In this document: piece by piece, positions 13,214-36,189 of the stretch
Layout: each line of letters starts with the position of its first letter
How positions within the stretch are numbered: the stretch's first letter is position 1
Notes under the pieces: generated by a model
Database searches by the model: none
What the model was told of the DNA's origin: nothing
The model's input: the letters and a program-made list of their open reading frames with translations, nothing else
Translations under genes and position numbers: made by a program
Virus record (IMG/VR): IMGVR_UViG_3300046517_000853
Coordinates: 1 to 46,976 of that record
Strand: one strand, 5' to 3'
From: a virus
Length of the DNA: 46,976 nt

Positions 13214-14605
13214 ATGGCATATCCATTTGATGAATCATTCGATGTTTACGGACTTAATAAGAAGAATCGATTAGATCGATTAATGCGTGATCCCTACAGT
13301 AATCAATTGACTGAACCCGGATTAATGGATCAGTCAGAGAATCCATTCGGTGGATTATTTAAGCCATCTAATTTACAGTCGATTGGATCTGCATCTGATC
13401 CATCGGTATCTGCAAAACCAGCTCAATCAGATGATGAGAGTTTAAGTGAATCCATAAGAAAAATGATGGAATTGAATAATCAATACTATCATCCTGAACA
13501 TACGGCTTCAGATAGATTGAATCAACTATTGAATAGTTTCCCACAAGAAAAAAGACCATCAATCGGTCGAACGATAGTAGCTGGTTTAGCTGGAATGGGT
13601 GCTAAAGAGGGTGGCGGATACGATGCATCCCAGAAGGTGATAGATGAGCCATTTAAGGGTGATTTAGAGAAATGGAAGGCCCAGACTCAACCCTCGTATC
13701 AGGCAGCGGAAGCTGAAAATCAAGGTAATGTAAATCAACGTACATTACTAGGGAATATGATTACGGCTGAAACAGCTAGTCGTAGAAATAGAACAGCAGA
13801 TGATAAATATAGAGCTGAAATTCTATCTAGGGAGAAGATTGCAACTGAGAAGGATGCAACAACTAGAGAAATAGCACAATCAAAACAAAGATTAGAACAG
13901 TATAAATTTGATAATCCTTATTTGATATTTGATTTCAATAGTCCAACTGTTCAAGCATTTGATCAACAAACTGGAGAATCATTTGATACGAAAGTTCCAT
14001 CAGGTCATATATCTGATATGGATAAAGCTGCAATAAATCAAAAGAATAAATTAGCACAAATTGCAGCACAAGGAGATCAATCTAGACGAAATGAAGGAAC
14101 TAGACAAGAGAATCGAATTGTAATTGAAGATAAACGAGCACAAGATGCTAGAGATTTGAAGGGAGTTGAGAACGAATCCCAACAAAGAATTGGCGAGGCA
14201 CGTAGGGCTAAATCAATATTAAATCAGAATCCCGAATTACGTCCATACATTAAATTCGATGGATCTAGTCCTAATGATTTTACTCTAACTCCTCCTAAGG
14301 CTGGTTTCTTTAGTGGAGTTTCAGCCGATATTCAGAAAAAATACGATGATGCAGTGAAACAAATTTATGGTCAACAACCTACCATTGGTGGTCCCCCAAC
14401 TTCAACTCAAAAACCGAAACCAATAGCCGGATCTAATCAGGGAATCCCATCTAATCAAGGAGTTCCAGCTACAACTACGAAGGCTGGGGATTACACAGAA
14501 AATACAGTAGATGAACCAATTATTCAACAAAATCGAACAACTGGTGCGAAGCGTGTATCATATGATGGTGGAAAAACCTGGAAGCCATACACAGGTGGTC
14601 AATAA
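13214..14605 (+). CDS. Internal virion / ejection protein, coiled coil
   Basis: The 463-residue protein is strongly helical between residues about 170 and 340, with many Arg/Glu/Gln residues (KYRAEILSREKIATEKDATT, ENRIVIEDKRAQDARDLKGV), and has disordered Pro/Gln/Asn-rich ends. The C-terminus ends in GAKRVSYDGGKTWKPYTGGQ, a compact hydrophilic motif of the kind used to tag a protein for virion assembly. It starts 2 bases after the previous stop and overlaps the next gene by one base. I recognise no enzyme domain. A virion-internal ejection role is inferred. Confidence 0.62.
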   Translation: MAYPFDESFDVYGLNKKNRLDRLMRDPYSNQLTEPGLMDQSENPFGGLFKPSNLQSIGSASDPSVSAKPAQSDDESLSESIRKMMELNNQYYHPEHTASDRLNQLLNSFPQEKRPSIGRTIVAGLAGMGAKEGGGYDASQKVIDEPFKGDLEKWKAQTQPSYQAAEAENQGNVNQRTLLGNMITAETASRRNRTADDKYRAEILSREKIATEKDATTREIAQSKQRLEQYKFDNPYLIFDFNSPTVQAFDQQTGESFDTKVPSGHISDMDKAAINQKNKLAQIAAQGDQSRRNEGTRQENRIVIEDKRAQDARDLKGVENESQQRIGEARRAKSILNQNPELRPYIKFDGSSPNDFTLTPPKAGFFSGVSADIQKKYDDAVKQIYGQQPTIGGPPTSTQKPKPIAGSNQGIPSNQGVPATTTKAGDYTENTVDEPIIQQNRTTGAKRVSYDGGKTWKPYTGGQ

Positions 14606-17600
14606 TGCCTCAACCAGATGATTGGGTTACAATTTCAGGTGGTAATCCTGATGATTGGGTGGACATTACTCCCAAAAAATACGAAAATAAACCATCATAC
14701 TATGATCAATATCTTGATCCTATAGTTAGTACATTAACACGCGCACCCGATATCGTCACTAAACCTCTCAAACGATTTGAAGATTGGATTACTACCCCTA
14801 GTCTCACATCCACGGATACGACTAAATCCATTCCGATGGGTAAAGATTTATTCATTAGTCCCCAGGAACGAGATATTGCAGGTGCTCAACTTAAAGGTTT
14901 CATAGGTGGTTCCGCTGTAGGACTGGGGAATCAACTATCTCCAGCTAATGTAGCCCAACAGGCATTTCCGGAGTCCAAACTTATAAATTACGGGGTTACA
15001 GGACTTCAGGGACTTAGTGGAGTTAAAAATTTAGCTCAAGGTAATTATCTCGATGCTGGTCAGGATTTGGGATGGGCTGTAATTAATCATTTGCTTGGAC
15101 CTAATGCTGGTGGACATAGTGGTGATAATAGACCACCTCTCAATATGTCAGTTGAAGATATGGGACCAGTTCCATCAGGTCCGAGTCCACAATTTAGACG
15201 ACAATTGGAAGGGCGTGTAGAACCAGTTAATACACCTCCATCACAACCACCTCCGCCAAATACACCACCAGAGGGAGTGGGACATAGAATTATTAGGGAT
15301 GATTGGACTCCTGCAATGATGGAGCATTATAAACAAATGGGATATGTTCCAGGTGGAATTGATCCCGTTAGTGGTAATGCTTACATGGAATTTAGGGGTT
15401 CACAACAATCAACCCAACAGGCACCATCACAAGAACAACCAAGTAATCCATTCGATCAGGTTCCTGTAGAAGAAGATTCAACTGGAGAAACAGTTAGACT
15501 TAATAAACCAAGTAATACAGCTATTGAGAATTTAAAGGCGGAAGGATTCAAACTAGTTGAAATTGATCGATCTGGTATAGCTACATTTAAGCGATTATTT
15601 ACAGATGAATCTGGACAAGTTGATTTCGGAGCATTGAAGGCTGGATTACGTCGAATGTTAGGACGTGAACCTACTGAGGAAGAAGTTCAACGTAAGGCAT
15701 TTGAGGAAAATAGTCATATTTCAGTTGAACCTGGTACTCAGACTGGACAGGTGGCCCCATTTACTCTAAAATCACGTCAAGTAAATGATGTTGTAATGGA
15801 TATATCTAATCATCTTAAACAAGATGTAGATAGAATGGATGAAAATAGTCTAAATCGGTTACTTCAAGAAGGTGAAAATACTATTACAAAAGAAAAAGAT
15901 CCTACTATTATTATAGATAATTATGAAAATTTAAATGAACATTTACAATTTGCTAAAATATATGGAACACCGGATGAAATTGAGTATATTGGACAATTAC
16001 GTGATATTGCTTTTGATAAACAAAGATCTATACAACGACCACGTACTCCTATTTTTACGCAACCATCTCAAGAACCACCTTCTATACAGGAACCAATTAC
16101 TAATCAATTAATGCCGCCAGGACCACAACCAGTCCCCCAACAACAGATGGGACCAAGATTAGTTCCACCTGTCCAACCACAATTCAAAGAACCACAAATA
16201 GATCCAAATATTGCATACATTGAAGCTCATACACCAATAGATCAATTGAGAGGACAGAATCAGTTACAGAATATCAGTCAACAGGGTCCAATAAATGAGC
16301 CAGTTGATCTAGGTCCACAACCTACTCAGGAGTCATTTGGCCCACGTAATACTCCAGATGAGCCATTATTTCAACGTGCATTCAAATCTGATCCTAAACG
16401 AATGGATTTAGGTCCACGTTATTATGGTCAGGGTAGACCTAGTATTGCAGGAGATTTAGTTCAAGCACGGGATAGTCAAAATGAACGCGCACGCGCACTT
16501 GGAATTGATCCAAAAGGAATGAGTGATGATGAACTAGTTAATGCAATTCGACGAGCGCGTGGATTAACTGATGAAGAACCACAGTTTGCAAAAGTCAAGG
16601 GCGGAGGATTACAGATAAGTACAGATAATCGAAGGGCTGCAACTAATATCACTAAAGATTATTCAAGTCCACTTGAAGGAATTATGAATCGTGAAGGTAT
16701 GCAAAATGCAATGGATGCAGCCGATTCAATGGGTCTTGATGGTAAAGTTAGATTAAGAATTACCAATAAAACAGCTACTAGTCCAGCTACGATGGAAATA
16801 CATGATAATGGTTTAGGAATGGACGAGGCTACATTAGCTGATAAATTAACTACACTATTTGCAACAGGTAAGGAAAATCAAGCAGGAGCTACTGGTGGTA
16901 AAGGAATTGGAAGTGCAAGTTATATACTAGGTGGTGAACATTTTGAAATTGATACTGTGGCAGTAGATCAACGTGATGGTAAGAAATATAGAATTGAAGC
17001 TGGTGGAACTCCTGAACAGTTTCATTCACCCCAAGGATCAGATTGGAGTAAGACTCCAGTTCCAAAAGATACACCAACTGGAACCTCGATTAAGGTAATA
17101 TTAAAAGATAATCAAGAATTACATTACACTAGAACAATGGCAGATAATATCATTGCACATTCAAGAGATAGACAATCTAAGGTAATATATGATCAATACG
17201 GTTATATGACTAGTGGAACACCTATTAATGAAATACAACCAAATGATCCTAAGTTTAATACTGAACATACATTCAAATCATCTAAAGGTGATAAAATTGT
17301 TGCAGATTTTACGTTCAAAAATAATGAAATTAAAGTTCAAGTTCCTCCATATGATAAAAATAAAGAAATATCATATTTTAAGGTTCATGTGTTGAATAAT
17401 GGAATGTATCAATTTAGTGAACAGAAATCAATTGGATCGAAGGTTAAAGATTTTCCCTCAGATGTAATCGTAAACATTCAACCTCAAGTAGATGAGATGC
17501 ATAATGATTATCCATTTACTAACACCAGAGAACACTTGAAAAATGATATTAAAGAAGTTATAGAGAAGGCTGTTAAGGATAAACTTAGTGGACCGGCAGT

Positions 17601-19770
17601 TGAGAGGAAGAAGAATAGAACTCAAGAATTATATGATTCTATGCCATTAGTTAATACTCCAGGTCTTAAACGTAAATCGGTGATATTTGATCCAGGTAAT
17701 AGACTTACACCAGATGAAATTAAGAATGTTCAAAGTAGTCCAATAGTTAAGTCATTACTTCTTCATTATGATAATTTAATTGATGGTATAATTCAAACAA
17801 CTGGTAGAACAGAATGGGCTGATAGATTAGAAGGAATTGGAATAGTATTCGATCCTACTATAAATGGAGTAATGATACCTAATCCAACTACAGGCAAGGC
17901 AACTATTCTAATTAATCCATTTGCAAGGATGGAAGGTGGACTTAATCCGAAGGATAATGCATGGGATAGTACAATTACTGCATTACATGAGGCTGCACAT
18001 ATTGGGAAGGAAACCGGGAAACCTATTAATTTTTCTCCCCAAGAACTAACTGATCCTCGTATGGGTAAATTTTTACAAGATTACATGAATGAATTAGTTA
18101 ATCATGGTGATGTGGGATACGAACAAACTGGTCATGGAATGGGCTTCACTCATAGATTGGGTGAAGTTTTCAGTTCCTTTGGAGTGGAGAATACTTATGG
18201 ACAGGCCAATCAACTTGAACAAATCCTCTCAGACAACACTGGGGGATACCGTCCAGAAATACAGAGAATATTTCAGCTCTATCAAGAACGCAATGGGAGA
18301 GACGCAACTACAGAAGACCTTCTCAGCCCAACGGGAACTAAGCAAGCAAATAGAAGATCCGGTGGAACGGGGAATATTCCTGGCAATTCACAAACAACTG
18401 GAGATGGAACTCCTACCTCCAAGTTAAGAGAAGCATATAATTTATCACGCGGAATCACTACAACGATGGACTTGTCTGCACCATTGAGACAGGGACTTCC
18501 ATTAATTGGAACTAGAGCATGGTGGACTTCGTGGAATCAACAGATGCGCGCTCTCGGATCTGAGAAAGCATATAATAAAACAATCGCAGATATTAAAGCC
18601 AGACCGATGTTCCGTCGTTACAGGGATTCAAGGACTGGAAAGGAAATTAAATCATTCGCTGAACAGGCTGGACTTGCGTTAACAGATGTAAGTACTAATC
18701 TGAATCAACGAGAGGAATCTATCGCATCTAGTTGGACTGAATCCGGTAAGATGTTCGGTGAAAATAATGCAGTTCAGAGGGGATATAAGAAAACAATTGG
18801 ACGTGGAGCTAGGGCATCTAATCGTGCATACACAGCATATTTGAACCAACTCCGTGCCGATACATTCGAGACACTAATTAAGGATGCTAAGGTATCATTC
18901 GATTCATCCCAGGCAGCAGGTACATTAGCTAAGACTGGAGATAAAGATCCACTAACTGATATGACTTATGCTAGAGAAATAGCTCAAGCTGTGAATACAT
19001 TGACTGGACGTGGTTCATTGACATTAGTTGGACCTAGTATGGAGGGTGGTAAATTACATTTGAAAGAACACTCAGCAGAAGCCGCTGCTGGACTCTTAAC
19101 TAATACAATGTTTGCACCTAGGAATACCGCTGCCAAGATGCAAATGATGAATCCGATGACTTATATGATGGCTAGTCCATTCGTTAGAAAACAATATCTG
19201 AAAGGATTACTCGGAGTCGCGGGTGCGTGGTTGACAGTTTCGGGATTGGCTTCACTGGCAGGAGCCGATGTAACATTAGATCCGCGTAGTGCAGACTTCG
19301 GTAAGGTTAGAATTGGTAACTTTAGATTAGATCCAGGTGGTGGGTTTCAACAGTTCCTTGTAGACTATGCAAGAAATGCAACTGGACATACACTTTCATC
19401 AGCTAGTGGTAAAAACTTCGAATTAGGACAAGGATACCGTGCTCCAACTAGGAAGGATATTAATGAGGGATTCTGGGTAAATAAACTTCATCCATTAATT
19501 AAATTTGCATACGATATATCGAATGCATCTACACATCAACCATTCGGTGTAATGGATCGAACTCTCCAACAAGTTGTTCCATTAGTTGTTCAAGATTTAT
19601 GGGATATTGTTAAAGAGAACCCAGAACTGCTACCATTTGCACCGGCAATAATAGCAGGTATGGGCACACAGATTTACAACAAGGGTCAGACTGAGGAGAG
19701 ATTCATTCCAAAGGAATACGATTACAATTTCACAGGTGGTGAATTACCTGGATCTAGTCTATTTCAATGA
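14605..19770 (+). CDS. Giant virion/ejection polyprotein with GHKL ATPase and HEXXH peptidase motifs
   Basis: The 1721-residue protein is the largest gene product. Residues 1-650 are Pro/Gln-rich and largely disordered, after two DDW repeats at the N-terminus. Residues about 685-850 carry the hallmarks of a GHKL (Hsp90/MutL/histidine-kinase) ATPase: QNAMDA (N box), DNGLGM at 734-739 (G1), GGKGIG at 764-769 (G2) and GTS near 826 (G3). HEAAH at 1128-1132 followed by HGMGFTHRLGE about 45 residues later is a zinc-metallopeptidase pattern. The C-terminal 450 residues are helical with a hydrophobic stretch near 1535 (GVAGAWLTVSGLASLAG) that could enter a membrane. This layout fits the large polyvalent proteins of phages that are injected with DNA; activity is unproved. 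Confidence 0.7.
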   Translation: MPQPDDWVTISGGNPDDWVDITPKKYENKPSYYDQYLDPIVSTLTRAPDIVTKPLKRFEDWITTPSLTSTDTTKSIPMGKDLFISPQERDIAGAQLKGFIGGSAVGLGNQLSPANVAQQAFPESKLINYGVTGLQGLSGVKNLAQGNYLDAGQDLGWAVINHLLGPNAGGHSGDNRPPLNMSVEDMGPVPSGPSPQFRRQLEGRVEPVNTPPSQPPPPNTPPEGVGHRIIRDDWTPAMMEHYKQMGYVPGGIDPVSGNAYMEFRGSQQSTQQAPSQEQPSNPFDQVPVEEDSTGETVRLNKPSNTAIENLKAEGFKLVEIDRSGIATFKRLFTDESGQVDFGALKAGLRRMLGREPTEEEVQRKAFEENSHISVEPGTQTGQVAPFTLKSRQVNDVVMDISNHLKQDVDRMDENSLNRLLQEGENTITKEKDPTIIIDNYENLNEHLQFAKIYGTPDEIEYIGQLRDIAFDKQRSIQRPRTPIFTQPSQEPPSIQEPITNQLMPPGPQPVPQQQMGPRLVPPVQPQFKEPQIDPNIAYIEAHTPIDQLRGQNQLQNISQQGPINEPVDLGPQPTQESFGPRNTPDEPLFQRAFKSDPKRMDLGPRYYGQGRPSIAGDLVQARDSQNERARALGIDPKGMSDDELVNAIRRARGLTDEEPQFAKVKGGGLQISTDNRRAATNITKDYSSPLEGIMNREGMQNAMDAADSMGLDGKVRLRITNKTATSPATMEIHDNGLGMDEATLADKLTTLFATGKENQAGATGGKGIGSASYILGGEHFEIDTVAVDQRDGKKYRIEAGGTPEQFHSPQGSDWSKTPVPKDTPTGTSIKVILKDNQELHYTRTMADNIIAHSRDRQSKVIYDQYGYMTSGTPINEIQPNDPKFNTEHTFKSSKGDKIVADFTFKNNEIKVQVPPYDKNKEISYFKVHVLNNGMYQFSEQKSIGSKVKDFPSDVIVNIQPQVDEMHNDYPFTNTREHLKNDIKEVIEKAVKDKLSGPAVERKKNRTQELYDSMPLVNTPGLKRKSVIFDPGNRLTPDEIKNVQSSPIVKSLLLHYDNLIDGIIQTTGRTEWADRLEGIGIVFDPTINGVMIPNPTTGKATILINPFARMEGGLNPKDNAWDSTITALHEAAHIGKETGKPINFSPQELTDPRMGKFLQDYMNELVNHGDVGYEQTGHGMGFTHRLGEVFSSFGVENTYGQANQLEQILSDNTGGYRPEIQRIFQLYQERNGRDATTEDLLSPTGTKQANRRSGGTGNIPGNSQTTGDGTPTSKLREAYNLSRGITTTMDLSAPLRQGLPLIGTRAWWTSWNQQMRALGSEKAYNKTIADIKARPMFRRYRDSRTGKEIKSFAEQAGLALTDVSTNLNQREESIASSWTESGKMFGENNAVQRGYKKTIGRGARASNRAYTAYLNQLRADTFETLIKDAKVSFDSSQAAGTLAKTGDKDPLTDMTYAREIAQAVNTLTGRGSLTLVGPSMEGGKLHLKEHSAEAAAGLLTNTMFAPRNTAAKMQMMNPMTYMMASPFVRKQYLKGLLGVAGAWLTVSGLASLAGADVTLDPRSADFGKVRIGNFRLDPGGGFQQFLVDYARNATGHTLSSASGKNFELGQGYRAPTRKDINEGFWVNKLHPLIKFAYDISNASTHQPFGVMDRTLQQVVPLVVQDLWDIVKENPELLPFAPAIIAGMGTQIYNKGQTEERFIPKEYDYNFTGGELPGSSLFQ

Positions 19771-22134: not shown

Positions 22135-24675
22135 TCAATCAGTCACAATGAATTGTTCGGTTATTGTGAGTGCGCGTACATCAGCTACTTGGGGAGTCTC
22201 AAATTTAATTGGTTCAGTTTTGAACTTGAATTTCTTGAAATCACAATAGTTCTCACCAATTTCTACATCACATGGAATCTTCAGATACTTTCGAGGTAGA
22301 CTACATTGAAGGAAATTAATAGGTCGTTCCATTTCCTTCTTGGCTAATGGAATAAATTCATCCACATCTCCGATTCTGACTGAAAATAATAATGCGTCAT
22401 GTGCTTCAAGTATAATCTTCGCTTCTTTGAACTGTTTTTTAATTCTAAGACCAGCGGCTTTAGTATTATCAGTGACAGCTCTCTGCGGAAGATATGCAAG
22501 TGCTTCTCTAAAAAGATCGTCTCCCCATCGTTCATAAAATATACGTACACCACCTCGTTCAGCATCAACACCCCACGGAAGTGGTGCAGTAAGTCGTCTA
22601 GTTGATTTAAGGCATTCAATAACCTCGGCGTGGAAGATTCGTTGTATTGTTGGTTGTTTTCCATGAAATATTTTTAATGCCCTTCCCGCGATGTTTTCAT
22701 CAATTTTGATAGGTATCTTGTACTTACGGGCTTGAGTGTTAAGTTCCGTACTGGCCCGTCTTGCACCAGCCCCCAAATGACCCGCATGGCGTAGTGTTTT
22801 CCCTGCAAAACGAATGGGCGATTCATACCCCAAAACTTTTTTAGAATAGTCATCTTCAGTTCCTCCGAAGAACCATGAAGCTGTGAGTGCATGATAGTCA
22901 TGAGTATCAATATCTATTAATGCCTGTTCATCCATCGCCAAGTTAAATACTACACGCGCTTCGGCCTGAGATGAATCTAATTGAACGAATACTTCACCCT
23001 CATCCGGGAGATACATTCCTCTAACATCAGCTCCAATATCACCATGTTTCGTGAATACTTGGAATGCGGTTCCTATCACTTTCATGTCGATCTTTCGACC
23101 CTTACCCACAATATCTATTTTTGGTCTAATTGGCGGATCTTGCTGTCCAGTACTACTACGACCCGTTTCAAGACATGGAAAACAAGTAGTCCGCATCTTT
23201 CCATCGAAGTCAGGAATTGCCATTAAGTACGTACTGATTGTTTTCTTAACACGTCGTCTCTCTAAACACTTTTCAATCCATACCCTTTGGTCAGGTCTAC
23301 TTACACCATTCTTTAGATTTAATAGACTAGTTAATTCCTCTTCACCAGTTCCATTCCTTCGAGGTAGTTTCCATATCTCGAATAAATGATGATACACCTG
23401 AGTCGGTGAACCTACATTTACATCAACCCCTGATAGATCGAACATTTCAGTCTGAAGTTTCTCATCCCAACTTAGATATTTTTCAATTAATTCCCTTCGT
23501 TTATCATAATCAACTCTGAATCCATTGTTTTCAATCTCTAGATAGAATTCAGGTAATTGCATTAGAAAGTTGTAATAGAATTTCCTGACATCTAATTCAT
23601 CTAGGTCAGGTTCCATATTTTGATCTATTTCAAGTGTGACACAAGCGTCACGTGCGCATCCGAGCAGTAAATCTCCAATTGACCCCTCATACATACCCTC
23701 GTCCTTATAGAAGGGTTCCCTGGTATAAATAGAAGTATTGAATGCAAGCCCTTTTGGGAGTTCAGGATTAATGGCGAAAGACTTGAACATTGTATCACTA
23801 ATGAGTTTTCTGATAGAAAATCCAAGTCTACGAAGTTTGTCCCTGTCGTAATTGAAATTTTGTCCAACAATGTCCTTCTCCATTAGTAATTGAGATAACA
23901 TGACCCATATTGTAGCTAAATCTGAAATTGGTATATCACTAATTCTATCCATATTCCATAGGGGAACCGCCATTCCATGATTTGGATTCAATGACAATCC
24001 AATACATATGGGCAGACAATGACCACCAGCCTCAATGTCTACCGCCATCTTACTGATTGATTTGTATCTTTGAAGGAATTCGTGTAATTCGCCGGAATTA
24101 CGACAGACTTGAAGGACTCGATTGGGGAGATTAGATTCGGGGTGGAATGATTCCGCGAGTGCGCGTTTGAAATCGAATATCATTACCTGTCGATTGTAGT
24201 ATCCTTTAATTTCACCAGGGCTACCCGAATGTATAAGATCCTTGGGATGATAGGTAGGAATAAGTTTATAACCCATCCCTCTGAGAATAGACCCTCGGAA
24301 CTTATTAATTTTTGTTTTCCCAGTGAGCGCCCATAGACTAGTCCCACTGAGAGCGAGTATACAGTTTGGCTTGAGTTCATCTAATTCAATTCTTAGTTCG
24401 GAGAGTTGTTGGTCTATATTAACTCCAACTGATTCAGTCCGTTTACTGAATGGAATCTTTTTAATCCCGGTATTAGGTGGAATATGATACTTCGATACAT
24501 TCGTAGTCCAAACTTCAGACCTACTAATCCCAGAATCCTTAAGTAGTCGATCTAATTCCCTGCCACCAGTCCCTGTAAATGGTCTACCTGAATTAACATC
24601 CTCAGACGATGGACAGTCACCTAATATGATTAATTTCGATCCAGCATTTCCCATGCCTGGGACGTATTTATTCAT
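22135..24675 (-). CDS. DNA polymerase, family A, with N-terminal uracil-DNA-glycosylase domain
   Basis: The 846-residue protein is a fusion. Residues 1-175 match family 4-type uracil-DNA glycosylase: GDCPSSEDVNSGRPF (19-33) and TYHP (141-144); the Fe-S cysteines of many family 4 enzymes are not visible. Residues about 205-370 hold a 3'-5' exonuclease (DIEAGG 213-218, QNFNYD, ARDACVTLE). The rest is a PolA palm and fingers: LDSSQAEARV (motif A), R-x3-K-T-L-R-H-x3-LG (O-helix) and AHDALLF (motif C, with Ala where Glu is usual). SPO1 polymerase has a comparable UDG-like N-terminus. The ATG overlaps the previous stop by 4 bp. This is the phage replicase. Confidence 0.9.
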   Translation of the reverse strand: MNKYVPGMGNAGSKLIILGDCPSSEDVNSGRPFTGTGGRELDRLLKDSGISRSEVWTTNVSKYHIPPNTGIKKIPFSKRTESVGVNIDQQLSELRIELDELKPNCILALSGTSLWALTGKTKINKFRGSILRGMGYKLIPTYHPKDLIHSGSPGEIKGYYNRQVMIFDFKRALAESFHPESNLPNRVLQVCRNSGELHEFLQRYKSISKMAVDIEAGGHCLPICIGLSLNPNHGMAVPLWNMDRISDIPISDLATIWVMLSQLLMEKDIVGQNFNYDRDKLRRLGFSIRKLISDTMFKSFAINPELPKGLAFNTSIYTREPFYKDEGMYEGSIGDLLLGCARDACVTLEIDQNMEPDLDELDVRKFYYNFLMQLPEFYLEIENNGFRVDYDKRRELIEKYLSWDEKLQTEMFDLSGVDVNVGSPTQVYHHLFEIWKLPRRNGTGEEELTSLLNLKNGVSRPDQRVWIEKCLERRRVKKTISTYLMAIPDFDGKMRTTCFPCLETGRSSTGQQDPPIRPKIDIVGKGRKIDMKVIGTAFQVFTKHGDIGADVRGMYLPDEGEVFVQLDSSQAEARVVFNLAMDEQALIDIDTHDYHALTASWFFGGTEDDYSKKVLGYESPIRFAGKTLRHAGHLGAGARRASTELNTQARKYKIPIKIDENIAGRALKIFHGKQPTIQRIFHAEVIECLKSTRRLTAPLPWGVDAERGGVRIFYERWGDDLFREALAYLPQRAVTDNTKAAGLRIKKQFKEAKIILEAHDALLFSVRIGDVDEFIPLAKKEMERPINFLQCSLPRKYLKIPCDVEIGENYCDFKKFKFKTEPIKFETPQVADVRALTITEQFIVTD

Positions 24676-26286: not shown

Positions 26287-27099
26287 TTAGAACTTTGTTT
26301 CTTGCGTTGGATTGGATTTCATTTTCTCTATGGCAGGTTTAACCCAATCATTGTACAGTGGTCTGTCACCAAAAACTATCTCCCTATCCAATCCTAATGC
26401 CGTACGTGCGAAGTCATCCCCTGTATGTTCAGTTAATAGTGAATAGTCACCTCCTTGACCTTCAATGAATCCCTTCTTAATGTTGAAGTGATATACCTCA
26501 AGACAATAAGCAGGAATCTTAGCAGCTACATTCTTACCAGCGGTCACAATCTGCCGACTGATATGTGTTACATTTTTCGTTGTATCACGATATTCAGCCT
26601 TAACGACGTGAGCGATTAGAATGATATTGACCTTATGGAACTTGTTGATATCCTTCGTCAATGCAATCAACTCATTTAATGCCGACGACTCAGCGTTGTA
26701 ATCTTCAATTTCGTTGACTGCGATTCCTGCGACTAGTTTCCCTGCGGTTCCACCTGACTTTTTAGTTTGACCGTATTTCAATTTCATCGTTTGTCTGAGT
26801 GTCATGTCAGCCATCGATGTAATCGAATCGAATACTAGTGTCTTGTATGGACAGTTCAATTGAAATTGTTCTAACTTAGCTCTCGGTTTATTCCAATCTT
26901 CGTAATCTTCGTAACTGATAGTTGATGGATCTATTCCCCATTTCTTCATGGGAAGATAGATTCCTTCCATCTTTCTATCCCAACTGAACCAGAATTGTGG
27001 GCCTGGATATGATAATGCTTGAGTTGATTTTCTAGTTCCAGGCTCGCCCTTTAACATTACGTATAGTCCATTGAAATCGATATCATTCATTGATGGCAT
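26287..27099 (-). CDS. Sak4-like RecA-fold ATPase
   Basis: The 270-residue protein has a Walker A motif GEPGTRKST at about residues 17-25, a Walker B-like strand LVFDSITSM near residue 89 and a later LIAHVVKAEY strand (about residue 159) with the order of RecA/Sak4 family proteins. Sak4 proteins promote single-strand annealing in phage recombination together with an SSB, which here is the next gene. AAGGATAAGAAGTA precedes the ATG. The start codon overlaps the stop of the tiny zinc-ribbon gene (TAATG). With the nuclease at 27695-28645 it would form a recombination module. Confidence 0.82.
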   Translation of the reverse strand: MPSMNDIDFNGLYVMLKGEPGTRKSTQALSYPGPQFWFSWDRKMEGIYLPMKKWGIDPSTISYEDYEDWNKPRAKLEQFQLNCPYKTLVFDSITSMADMTLRQTMKLKYGQTKKSGGTAGKLVAGIAVNEIEDYNAESSALNELIALTKDINKFHKVNIILIAHVVKAEYRDTTKNVTHISRQIVTAGKNVAAKIPAYCLEVYHFNIKKGFIEGQGGDYSLLTEHTGDDFARTALGLDREIVFGDRPLYNDWVKPAIEKMKSNPTQETKF

Positions 27100-27694: not shown

Positions 27695-28645
27695 TTAATC
27701 CTCATCACGATTGTGTGGATCCCATTTAGGTGATTTAGTGAATTCCGCTCTCAATACTTCCACACGCATTCCTCGGTCTGATTCACACACTGGCTTAAAC
27801 ATACATGAACCATACAAGTTATCACAATGCGTATAATCAGGAGGCCAATAACCAGATTCCATGAATTGAATCAGTCGATAAGCCTCATATGGAATTGTCT
27901 CATTCTGCCATTCGTCTAATCTGTCCTTACTATAACTCACCACTTCTCTTGTGAGTCTTTCAGAAATTTTCAGAGTAGTCTGCAACCCAATCTTGTTGAC
28001 GATGACATTTCTAGATTTCAGTAGGACACAATGACCCATGAACTGATTACTTAGACTCGACTTATTCCGACGTTGTTTAAATGTCTTGTGATCTACTGAT
28101 ACGATTCCGATTTGATTTGTATCGATGATTAGATCGAATTTCGCTTTCCACAAAACACGAATCTCATCATCTTCGTAGATTACTTCACCCTTAACCGACT
28201 CGGCAGCTAATGGAATGAATGAATCATTCTTATACATCTCGAAGTATTGTTCACATGTTTCTAATGCGAACTTCCAGCCTACATTCCATCCCTCATTTAA
28301 TTCGGGTGTGTTTTGTAGTCCAGGGTATTCCGCTGGTTCATGTTTACATTCTGGTGAGTCCGTGTCACCTGATGAACAGAATGGACAGCCCTGAATATAA
28401 AGATTCCCCGCAGTTAGTCCCTGACTAATTGATGTATTACGTGGAAACCCTTTAATCATATGATCGTAATACACTTCAAGAACCTTGTGAATCAATGAAC
28501 CTACTTCGAGAGAGTTGGACTTTCCTTTCATTGAAACTAATTGATTATTGAACCGAATGTCATAGTATCTAGCACAACTCATCAATGTACTGAGCATCGT
28601 TGCATCTAATGCTATGTTCTTCTTAGGTTGTGGTATTATGTCCAT
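27695..28645 (-). CDS. PD-(D/E)XK nuclease, RecB/Cas4-like
   Basis: The 316-residue protein shows the RecB/Cas4-type layout. VGSLIHKVLEVYY at about residues 48-60 is the G-x3-H-x2-LE helix of PDDEXK_1 nucleases; a later IGIVSVDHKTFK strand gives the D...(D/E)xK-like catalytic core (the core acid is Asp, then His-Lys). Cys 24 plus the C-terminal CDNLYGSCMFKPVC fit an iron-sulphur cluster like that of AddB or Cas4. It probably resects ends to feed the Sak4-like annealing module. The start overlaps the upstream gene by 23 bp. Confidence 0.82.
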   Translation of the reverse strand: MDIIPQPKKNIALDATMLSTLMSCARYYDIRFNNQLVSMKGKSNSLEVGSLIHKVLEVYYDHMIKGFPRNTSISQGLTAGNLYIQGCPFCSSGDTDSPECKHEPAEYPGLQNTPELNEGWNVGWKFALETCEQYFEMYKNDSFIPLAAESVKGEVIYEDDEIRVLWKAKFDLIIDTNQIGIVSVDHKTFKQRRNKSSLSNQFMGHCVLLKSRNVIVNKIGLQTTLKISERLTREVVSYSKDRLDEWQNETIPYEAYRLIQFMESGYWPPDYTHCDNLYGSCMFKPVCESDRGMRVEVLRAEFTKSPKWDPHNRDED

Positions 28646-30917: not shown

Positions 30918-33041
30918 TTACTTGGTCGTTAGAATCTTCTTATTCTTTTTCGCGTTATGGGCATTCACGATGGTCTCAGCTAATTCCTTCATTAGTGAGT
31001 CCTCATTCCATTGTGGCATCTCACCTTTATTCATGCCATCATGGAACTGATATCGCTTCCTTTCAACGATGCCGTCTAGTGTGGAATCTATAGCCGTGAG
31101 TCCTTCCATGTGCGCGTATATCGCTGACACTGAAGTACTCACACTTCCTATACGAATGAATCTACTCTCTGCCTGTTCTTCTCTACCAGGATTCCACATT
31201 CTTTCGTGTAACACGCAATCACAACACGTCTGGAGATTTAATCCCTCTCCTGCAGCGATTGTTGATGCCACAAGAATCGCCTGTTTGGATTCGTTGAATA
31301 TCGTTTGGGTAGTGTGAACCTGACTTGAATCCATCCCTGATACGAATTTCAAGACTGGAATATTATTTCCATGAACTGACTTGAAGTAATCGAACAACAT
31401 GTCCTGAACATCTTTATGGTGGGCAAACACCACAATCTTACGGTCAGTGTCTTCGATGAATTCGTTGACATATTCCTGGGTTGCATCAATCTTAGCTAGT
31501 GCGACTAGATGCCGCATTTTAGCCATTGCTGCAATAATAGCCATGCCACCTAAATTACCTGACTGTTCTTCAAACCATTTAACGAAATCATCAACTGCCA
31601 CGTCATAGGATTCCTGTTTCTCAGGGTCCATCTTGACGTATAGTTTGGTTCGATTGATTAGAGGTAATTCGGGCATTACTTCCGCTCGTTCACGTCGGAT
31701 GCAAATGTCCTTCGTGTATTCACGAAATAATTTGATGTTCTTAATTCCGCCCTCTTTTCTGAATGCGCCCTGCCAGAAATAACTGACCCATTTAGTCTTG
31801 AATCCCTCTTCCGAATTGAACTTCATTGGATCGAGCATATTCAAGACTGGAAATAATTCACTACCTCTATTATTCCATGGCGTTCCGCTGAGTGCGATTA
31901 CTTTCTTTCCTTTGACTACGCGCCGAACCATCTGAGTCCGTGCCGAGTCAACATTTTTAATCTGTTGACACTCATCTAATACGACCGACTTGATATCCAA
32001 ATCATCGAACTTCTTGATATCGAACCCTGAATTGATTACTCTCCCCGACTTCAGAGTCTTGGACTTCGGAACCATCATGTCATAACTAATGATGTAATTC
32101 TTGAATCCGGGCATCGGCTCATCTTTCGATGAACTGATAATCCACGGAATGTGGTCTTTGCCCATCCATTTAATGATGAACATTGCAAACTGATATTGGA
32201 GAGCTGACTTGACTATCCACAATGTGGACTGATATTCAGGATGGAACTTCAAGAGTCCACCGGCCTGAATAGTTTTACCTAATCCCATTTCATCGAAGAT
32301 AGCCACGCCATGATTTACGGCTAATGCCGCTTCACCGAATTTCATTCCTTCTAACTGAAAATCGTATGGTCTCTTACGTGAACAAAGAACACAATTATTC
32401 TTATCCCATACGTGTTCACACGATGGGTCGCCACCGAATTGAAATGTATGAAATGGTGTCCCTTTAGGAATCCGGCGGACTAGCAGGTGGGAACATTCTA
32501 ATTGAATGAACTTCCAATCGAACTTCTTGTCGTCACCAGTTACCAGATTCCAATCATGGTCAGTCTTGGCGACTTTACCACAATATTCACATTTGTCTTG
32601 AAGCCGTGTAATCGAATACTTCGGAGTCCGAACTATTTGTTCCTCGAATGCAATCGGTACGATGACTTTCTTTTCATCGAATGTAACTTCTACATCTGCA
32701 CCTGACCGAATTGCATCGATGATATTTTGGTCTAATGAAAGAGTTGAACATGGTGACGTGTTATCACATCCGATTTCTCTCGCTTTATTAGACCACACTT
32801 CATCATGCCCATGAAATGGACCGACTATGGCATGAGCCACTTCGTGAAGATTTGTATTCTTAACATCCGGGGTTGGATGAATGTCAATATGGTGGGCTGA
32901 TAGGATGATTGTCTTGTCTTTATGTGAACACAAGCCAAGGAATCGACTGGACGAATCAGTGTTGAGACGAATATGCCAATCCGTCAGTCCGTGTTTATTC
33001 AGATTATCCCTGAGATGTTGTGTCGCCTCTTGTCTAGTCAT
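30918..33041 (-). CDS. SprT-like metallopeptidase fused to SNF2-type DNA helicase
   Basis: The 707-residue protein combines two activities. Residues 1-100 hold a SprT-like zinc peptidase: HEVAH (66-70) and HGHDEVW (77-83) as third ligand. CEYC (151-154), a later C-x-H (183-185) and CEH/CVLC (208-220) look like zinc ribbons. From residue 225 a SNF2/SF2 helicase follows: DEMGLGKT (250-257), DECQ (356-359), SGTPWNNRGSEL (385-396) and NPGREEQAESRFIRIGS near 630. SprT/SPRTN proteins cleave proteins crosslinked to DNA; coupling to a dsDNA translocase suggests a protein-DNA crosslink or roadblock remover, an inference. Activity of each half looks intact. Confidence 0.9.
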   Translation of the reverse strand: MTRQEATQHLRDNLNKHGLTDWHIRLNTDSSSRFLGLCSHKDKTIILSAHHIDIHPTPDVKNTNLHEVAHAIVGPFHGHDEVWSNKAREIGCDNTSPCSTLSLDQNIIDAIRSGADVEVTFDEKKVIVPIAFEEQIVRTPKYSITRLQDKCEYCGKVAKTDHDWNLVTGDDKKFDWKFIQLECSHLLVRRIPKGTPFHTFQFGGDPSCEHVWDKNNCVLCSRKRPYDFQLEGMKFGEAALAVNHGVAIFDEMGLGKTIQAGGLLKFHPEYQSTLWIVKSALQYQFAMFIIKWMGKDHIPWIISSSKDEPMPGFKNYIISYDMMVPKSKTLKSGRVINSGFDIKKFDDLDIKSVVLDECQQIKNVDSARTQMVRRVVKGKKVIALSGTPWNNRGSELFPVLNMLDPMKFNSEEGFKTKWVSYFWQGAFRKEGGIKNIKLFREYTKDICIRRERAEVMPELPLINRTKLYVKMDPEKQESYDVAVDDFVKWFEEQSGNLGGMAIIAAMAKMRHLVALAKIDATQEYVNEFIEDTDRKIVVFAHHKDVQDMLFDYFKSVHGNNIPVLKFVSGMDSSQVHTTQTIFNESKQAILVASTIAAGEGLNLQTCCDCVLHERMWNPGREEQAESRFIRIGSVSTSVSAIYAHMEGLTAIDSTLDGIVERKRYQFHDGMNKGEMPQWNEDSLMKELAETIVNAHNAKKNKKILTTK

Positions 33042-33059: not shown

Positions 33060-33773
33060 TTAGTTGGATTTATTTCGTTTGGCTACGATTTCTAATGCAG
33101 CAGTTTCAGCCGATACACCATATGCTTCCATACGCATCTTAAGTGCGGATGGATTAATGCCGTGTTTAGATGCCATCTCATTCAATTCTTTTCGTTGAAC
33201 TGAATGACCTGGCTTATTCGTAGTGACAGCTCCTTTAATGGATTTAACCCGTGGTTCACCGGATGGATAGTTGATTATGTCCTTATCGAATTCTTTCCTT
33301 TGTTCCTTGTTCTTGATTCGTGGTGCGAATTCCTGTAACTGAATCTGCCACATCGCCTTTTCGTTTTTCTTCTCTTTGGCGAATTTTTCTGCCTGAAAGA
33401 TGATGGGCTGTAATGCCTCGATTCTAACTCGAATCTCTTTCACGAATGCGTAGTATTTTTCATCCTCTGGAATCTCTGGATTAGATTGAATCGAAGCCAT
33501 TAGTTCGGATGCGGGAGTCGTCTGCGCGTTGAATATTTCAGTCGAATCGATAATGCTGGAATCTCGTTTCCTCGATTCCTCGATTATTTGTCTGGATTCC
33601 ATTGACTTTTTAGTATTGGCGATTGTAATGTCATTCTGTTCTTGAATGCATTCTTTGCATATCCAGATGTTATTCGATTCCATCCAAAGTTCCCGCTGGT
33701 CTATCTGACCATGAGAGTCAAGATGAATCTTCACGTCACATTCGCCGATTCGTTTGGCTACTTTATTCAACAT
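33060..33773 (-). CDS. Hypothetical coiled-coil protein with Cys motif
   Basis: The 237-residue protein begins with a possible zinc site (GEC, ICKEC near residues 11 and 38-42), followed by long charged helices (KSMESRQIIEESRKRDSSII, AKEKKNEKAMWQIQLQEF) and a C-terminal region (MASKHGINPSALKMRMEAYG, residues about 203-222) that looks like a helix-turn-helix. It starts on the stop of the preceding gene (TAATG) and ends 19 bases before the SNF2 start. Possibly a regulator or accessory of the helicase; not proven. Confidence 0.62.
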   Translation of the reverse strand: MLNKVAKRIGECDVKIHLDSHGQIDQRELWMESNNIWICKECIQEQNDITIANTKKSMESRQIIEESRKRDSSIIDSTEIFNAQTTPASELMASIQSNPEIPEDEKYYAFVKEIRVRIEALQPIIFQAEKFAKEKKNEKAMWQIQLQEFAPRIKNKEQRKEFDKDIINYPSGEPRVKSIKGAVTTNKPGHSVQRKELNEMASKHGINPSALKMRMEAYGVSAETAALEIVAKRNKSN

Positions 33774-36090: not shown

Positions 36091-36189
36091 CGCAAAGGAC
36101 TTTGCGACACAAAGGACTCGGCACAGAAAATTACTTTGCGCGAAGCGCAAAAGTTCTTTGAGGCACAGAGTCCTTTGTCTTGCAAAGTC
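36091..36189. repeat. Nested inverted repeat (92-nt stem-loop with internal hairpin)
   Basis: Stems read inward as GACTTTGC (36098-36105) with GCAAAGTC (36182-36189), ACAAAGGACTC (36109-36119) with GAGTCCTTTGT (36168-36178), and TTTGCGC (36135-36141) with GCGCAAA (36145-36151) around GAA. A 3x3 internal loop separates the two outer stems. A competing hairpin CGCAAAG/CTTTGCG (36091-36106) uses the same left outer arm, so two shapes are possible. Confidence 0.75.

Follow-up and report, generated by a model that had tools for sequence, protein, structure and literature searches.

The window analyzed here comprises positions 1 to 46,976 of the IMG/VR virus record IMGVR_UViG_3300046517_000853. An open reading frame on the minus strand (30918..33041) begins with an ATG codon and encodes a protein of 707 amino acids in which an SprT-like metallopeptidase domain and an SNF2 enzyme are joined in a single open frame. 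The SprT-like domain spans residues 1–100 (32742..33041), the SNF2 N-terminal ATPase lobe residues 226–510 (31512..32366), and the helicase C-terminal lobe residues 511–660 (31062..31511), all on the minus strand. The corresponding Pfam matches extend over residues 10–93 (SprT-like, PF10263, E = 2.4e-7), 229–509 (SNF2-rel_dom, PF00176, E = 4.1e-28), and 525–632 (Helicase_C, PF00271, E = 1.4e-10). All of these matches exceed the curated cut-offs, and for PF10263 the score is 31 bits versus a cut-off of 25.6. The preliminary description of this DNA had placed an SprT-like metallopeptidase at the N-terminus of a complete SNF2 enzyme, and this arrangement is borne out by the domain matches.

The sequence motifs that had been named for the two halves are all found in the translation. 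HEVAH at residues 66–70 (32832..32846, minus strand) supplies zinc ligands and the catalytic glutamate, and HGHDEVW at residues 77–83 (32793..32813, minus strand) includes the presumed third zinc ligand, H79. H66, E67, H70, and H79 are invariant in the 35-sequence alignment A1, and W83 is also invariant. In the SNF2 half, DEMGLGKT, DECQ, and SGTPW appear at residues 250–257, 356–359, and 385–389, respectively, together with NPGREEQAESR. Both lobes are conserved and carry the features of the SNF2 family, namely Walker A, motif II, an SGTPW-type motif, and motif VI (NPGREEQAESRFIRIG, in the C-terminal lobe). Residues 223–700 match the phage SNF2 helicase family phrog_62 in PHROGs with an E-value of 1.5e-73. 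The four PHROGs families matched by the first 100 residues have no function assigned in that database and were read as phage SprT families.

Two zinc knuckles, absent from the preliminary description, are located between the SprT and SNF2 domains. Knuckle 1 (C151-C154...C183-H185, residues 151–185, 32487..32591, minus strand) is invariant in alignment A1. Knuckle 2 (C208-H210...C217-C220, residues 208–220, 32382..32420, minus strand) is nearly invariant and is missing in the homologues from loci L076 and L342. Knuckle 1 (CxxC...CxH) belongs to the SNF2 half, since it is present in all six SNF2 enzymes of sister phages that lack SprT and in none of 53 other viral SNF2 enzymes. Its occurrence in the SprT-less sisters likewise led to the rejection of an alternative in which knuckle 1 corresponds to the zinc-binding domain of SPRTN. 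In the fused protein of locus L340 (5977-8256), an additional CxxC-rich segment separates SprT from the usual knuckle and is possibly a third zinc element.

A full-length AlphaFold2 model was built with a 35-row alignment and has a mean pLDDT of 83.9. Foldseek searches with this model returned the SNF2 translocases CHD4, ISW1, SNF2h, CSB, Sulfolobus (Sso) SWI2/SNF2, and ZorD. From this family membership, the SNF2 half would be expected to catalyze ATP-dependent translocation on duplex DNA. Identification as a component of a defense system (ZorD or DrmD) was rejected because the scores fall far below the curated family cut-offs, with 68.9 for DrmD (cut-off 610), 52.9 for ZorD (cut-off 1500), and 54 for DpdE (cut-off 500). 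Among 92 distinct fused proteins the Walker A motif ends in GKT in 88 and in GKQ in two, and the remaining two were unmatched by the search pattern. The proteins of L046 and L040 contain DEMGLGKQ with an intact SprT site, which could mean either that the motor is weakened or that the change is tolerated.

The N-terminal region (residues 1–230) was modeled with a pLDDT of 84.9. Foldseek matched this model to selecase/jannalysin, abylysin, SPRTN (6mdx), and Wss1, each with a probability of 1.00; the E-value for 6mdx is moderate (6.6e-3). The similarity in sequence between the SprT domain and the solved SPRTN structure is weak (profile E = 0.041). A minimal zincin fold is thus predicted for the N-terminal region, and the non-metallopeptidase fold that would have told against the preliminary description was not seen. 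The linker between SprT and knuckle 1 has the lowest confidence in the full model (pLDDT of 53–62 at residues 100–140) and varies in length among the homologues, and it contains the strongly conserved stretches IDAIRSGA and TRLQDKC.

Within the fused family, SprT is the best-conserved region, with a mean top-residue frequency of 0.80 versus 0.74 and 0.73 for the motor lobes. The pN/pS ratio is approximately 0.20 for SprT and 0.20–0.22 for the SNF2 lobes (58 pairs); pN/pS was used for SprT in place of dN/dS because synonymous sites are saturated. The SprT portion is under selection as strong as that on the motor.

All scans of IMG/VR together provided 92 distinct fused proteins, with identities down to 36–39%. 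The carriers form one lineage of uncultivated phages, mostly from soil. In the first scan, which covered 2.9 million viral contigs, 149 stretches were confirmed, and a complete fusion in one frame was found in 71 of the 80 loci that were kept, the remaining loci being cut short or slightly below the limits for completeness. The second scan found the fusion in 75 of 79 loci, with the other four broken off by the end of the contig. Two deep members at the edge of the family, L340 and L342, retain SprT and are 39% and 36% identical, respectively, to L158, the query of the scan in which they were found. The HExxH motif and the downstream third histidine are retained in all 92 proteins, and wherever the contig of a related locus spans the gene, the two domains share one frame. 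The fusion is therefore neither a chance occurrence nor an assembly artifact.

The fusion gene is part of a minus-strand operon with genes for a PD-(D/E)XK exonuclease, a Sak4-like ATPase, a cold-shock protein, a UDG-polymerase, and a primase-like protein, and the order of the flanking genes is conserved across the fusion loci. The upstream gene of the operon (33060..33773, minus strand) encodes 237 amino acids and is separated from the fusion by 18 bp, and 52 loci have a homologue at this offset. The PD-(D/E)XK (Cas4/RecB-like) exonuclease (27695..28645, minus strand; PF12705, E = 5.4e-10) is on the same strand in 66 loci and is also present in the SprT-less sisters. The Sak4-like recombination ATPase (26287..27099, minus strand; phrog_124, E = 6.9e-17) was found in 64 loci and in 14 of 14 tested records. 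A uracil-DNA glycosylase of the family 4 type is fused to a family A DNA polymerase at 22135..24675 on the minus strand (PF03167 and PF00476), and this protein was detected in 13 of the 14 tested records. It is common to the fused and SprT-less phages. In the record that contains L074 (G021), the best match to the UDG-polymerase is in two pieces, with an in-frame TAG and TAA inside. A functional link to a UdgX-type, self-crosslinking glycosylase, considered on the basis of a TIGR03914 match, was dropped; the KRRIH motif is absent, and the sisters without SprT also have the UDG-polymerase.

The next relatives of the fused proteins (L343–L348) are SNF2 enzymes without SprT, whose motors are 33–35% identical to that of the query L158. 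No SprT was found anywhere in the records of these six sisters, several of which are fragments. Sisters with sufficiently long records have genomes of 44–47 kb, with identities of 42–44% for TerL and 38–41% for UDG-PolA. Their Sak4-like ATPase and PD-(D/E)XK exonuclease are in the same neighborhood, and the SNF2 gene occupies the same place in the operon. Where record length suffices, the sisters are of the same genome type as the fused phages. In the SNF2 tree the fused proteins group as a single clade (SH-aLRT of 96), as they do in the SprT tree (support of 100/98), and the agreement of the two trees points to a single fusion event. The protease appears to have been recruited to an existing motor, since the sisters contain the SNF2 enzyme and its knuckle in the same module without SprT. 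The simplest history suggested by these sequences would be one addition of SprT to a pre-existing SNF2 enzyme of the replication module, with retention ever since.

In a search of phages and cellular genomes for SprT together with SNF2, the combined architecture was found only in this uncultivated lineage among the genomes examined. A search of 50,697 cultured phage genomes returned no record covering 80% of the fusion protein, and no plasmid record reached this coverage. The SprT genes examined in cultured phages are standalone, and SNF2 was absent from the fetched flanks of all 80 viral SprT loci. A full-alignment motif search of the GTDB genomes returned no relative of the fusion, and an SprT search there returned 427 relatives, the best 80 of which include no fused protein. 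These searches start from short patterns, from which a distant cellular fusion could escape. The only close pair of SNF2 and SprT genes among the loci examined is in Microbacterium phage Theresita (L083, 2663-5247), where SNF2 (gene 31) and SprT (gene 33) are encoded separately, approximately 0.4 kb apart. Gene 33 is annotated merely as hypothetical, and the pair is a possible split counterpart of the fusion. Little weight was given to the pair as Rosetta-stone support, since the single related locus that was identified (L246) yielded no SNF2 match.

The preliminary description had also stated that no phage system built on this fusion is known. No paper describing SprT and SNF2 in one chain was found in the literature searched, whose coverage is thin for subscription journals and preprints, and the many earlier accounts that would have contradicted novelty were likewise not found there. 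The statement must be qualified, however, since the polyvalent proteins of phages also combine a zincin and an SWI2/SNF2 ATPase in one chain (Iyer et al. 2017, PMC5512222). Those proteins differ from the fusion in being giant and composed of many domains, with the SNF2 partner tied to an adenine methylase (PMC5512222). Their zincins were assigned to 12 clades that, according to the authors, have no relationship to the zincin clades defined earlier, with glutamate as the third zinc ligand and with SprT unmentioned (PMC5512222). In the fusion the third ligand is a histidine and the domain is SprT-like, which sets it apart from the polyvalent type. Standalone phage SprT proteins (phrog_1006, phrog_6445, phrog_3768, phrog_10840, and gp83 of mycobacteriophage LHTSCC) are the nearest characterized relatives of the N-terminal domain and share its motifs, but they are without an SNF2 domain and branch outside the fused clade. 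The SNF2 helicases of the phrog_62 type from Thermus phage MN1, Rhodothermus phage RM378, and the Gordonia GTE7-like phages are of the same motor family; they are approximately 25% identical and lack both SprT and the CxxC...CxH knuckle. The domains themselves were already known; the SprT–SNF2 architecture is new and has a clear evolutionary origin.

The predicted N-terminal fold is shared with SPRTN/Spartan and Wss1 (SprT-like PF10263 and WLM), which are zinc peptidases with an HExxH motif that act on DNA–protein crosslinks. SPRTN, of all SprT proteins the one studied most thoroughly, is a DNA-dependent protease for such crosslinks that is coupled to replication (PMC5127644, PMC5128727), and action on DNA during replication is likewise proposed here for the fusion. 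Recruitment of SPRTN depends on PCNA and ubiquitin, and the ATPase with which it works, p97, is a separate protein, whereas the fusion has its ATPase motor in the same chain. Bacteria lack ubiquitin and recruitment of p97, and the PIP box, SHP box, and UBZ of SPRTN are not expected in their phages.

The reading that we favor, with a chance of about one-half, is that the fusion is a single-chain protease that tracks along DNA and serves phage replication and recombination by cutting crosslinked or blocking proteins. The SNF2-type ATPase would move along duplex phage DNA, with the zinc knuckles probably aiding the grip on DNA, and the SprT domain in front would cleave the proteins met by the motor, either covalent DNA crosslinks or tightly bound roadblocks. 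Candidate roadblocks are host nucleoid proteins, stalled RNA polymerase, and trapped enzymes, and their cleavage would keep the replication and recombination of the phage itself going. What we infer in this proposal is that the motor moves at the expense of ATP, that SprT is proteolytic, that DNA serves as the platform, and which proteins are the substrates. Such a task is consistent with the predicted domain anatomy, with the conservation of the active sites, and with the replication and recombination operon. A bolder version, which we hold more tentatively, is a ubiquitin-free, one-chain machine in which the SNF2 motor would drive DNA-bound proteins into SprT, as a counterpart of SPRTN with p97 or of CSB with crosslink repair. 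Several points count against the favored reading. The sister phages replicate without the protease, using only the SNF2 enzyme, so that it is dispensable for basic function, and the absence of SNF2 next to the 80 viral SprT loci, Theresita excepted, argues against a strong general coupling of the two activities. The weak sequence match to SPRTN (E = 0.041) and the moderate Foldseek E-value (6.6e-3) are further points on this side.

The strongest rival, to which we assign roughly half the probability of the favored reading, is an offensive or counter-defense protease that is carried by the motor to host DNA-bound proteins (nucleoid proteins, restriction or defense enzymes, or RNA polymerase) to disable them. 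The standalone SprT-like protein LHTSCC gp83, which is 45% identical over 91 amino acids to the SprT domain of the fusion, has a bactericidal effect on M. smegmatis upon expression and makes the cells grow as filaments (PMC7474061). The SprT-like peptidases of jumbo phages have been proposed to target host proteins, given their patchy distribution (PMC7824862), and the SNF2 half does score against the defense helicases ZorD and DrmD, although this reflects general SNF2 similarity. On the other hand, the fused gene lies within a conserved replication and recombination operon and descends from a gene for a plain SNF2 enzyme in the same place. Moreover, SprT is intact in all of the fused homologues found and is the slowest-changing part, with none of the rapid change or loss that an arms race would suggest. 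Attack on host proteins is compatible with a role in replication, and the two are not mutually exclusive.

The other rivals are less likely than attack on host proteins. Cleavage by SprT within its own polypeptide, perhaps in the low-confidence linker (residues 100–145), might release or inactivate the SNF2 enzyme, just as autocleavage restricts the activity of SPRTN. The low confidence and variable length of this linker would suit a cleavable segment, autocleavage of SPRTN requires the glutamate of its HEXXH motif (PMC5127644), and self-processing has been proposed for the polyvalent phage zincins (PMC5512222). We nevertheless consider self-processing improbable: the linker is in part strongly conserved, yet no single conserved cut site was seen, and the sisters already make a free SNF2 enzyme, so that little would be gained from fusion followed by release. 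A non-catalytic SprT whose role is confined to binding DNA or proteins and steering the SNF2 motor is more improbable still. Some zincin-fold domains of other proteins have lost catalysis, but the catalytic glutamate and the three zinc ligands, which dead zincins normally lose first, are kept in 92 of 92 proteins. The joining of two genes by an error of assembly or sequencing, or a chance HExxH, can be regarded as refuted, since the same single frame recurs in every sufficiently long related locus from many independent metagenomes and no point in its support was found.

Cellular proteases for DNA–protein crosslinks work via separate adaptors and motors, and less is understood about how bacteria and phages handle proteins stuck on DNA. 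A natural fusion of protease and translocase, intact across a wide phage lineage and accompanied by close sisters without the protease, offers a ready-made comparison. The question of whether a DNA motor directs SprT proteolysis to its substrate thereby becomes testable in one polypeptide.

Two additional features of the window were observed. Strong, imperfect inverted repeats at 36093-36189, in the region that separates the minus-strand operon from the late genes on the plus strand, may have a role in regulation or replication. At the end of the run of structural genes, a protein of 1721 amino acids (14605-19770, plus strand) contains a signature of the GHKL (HSP90/GyrB/histidine-kinase) ATPases at approximately residues 690–790, with the motifs REGMQNAMDA, DNGLGM, and GGKGIGS and a match to HATPase_c_3 (E = 2.4e-5) that is slightly under the cut-off. 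Such a signature is unusual for a phage protein in this position.
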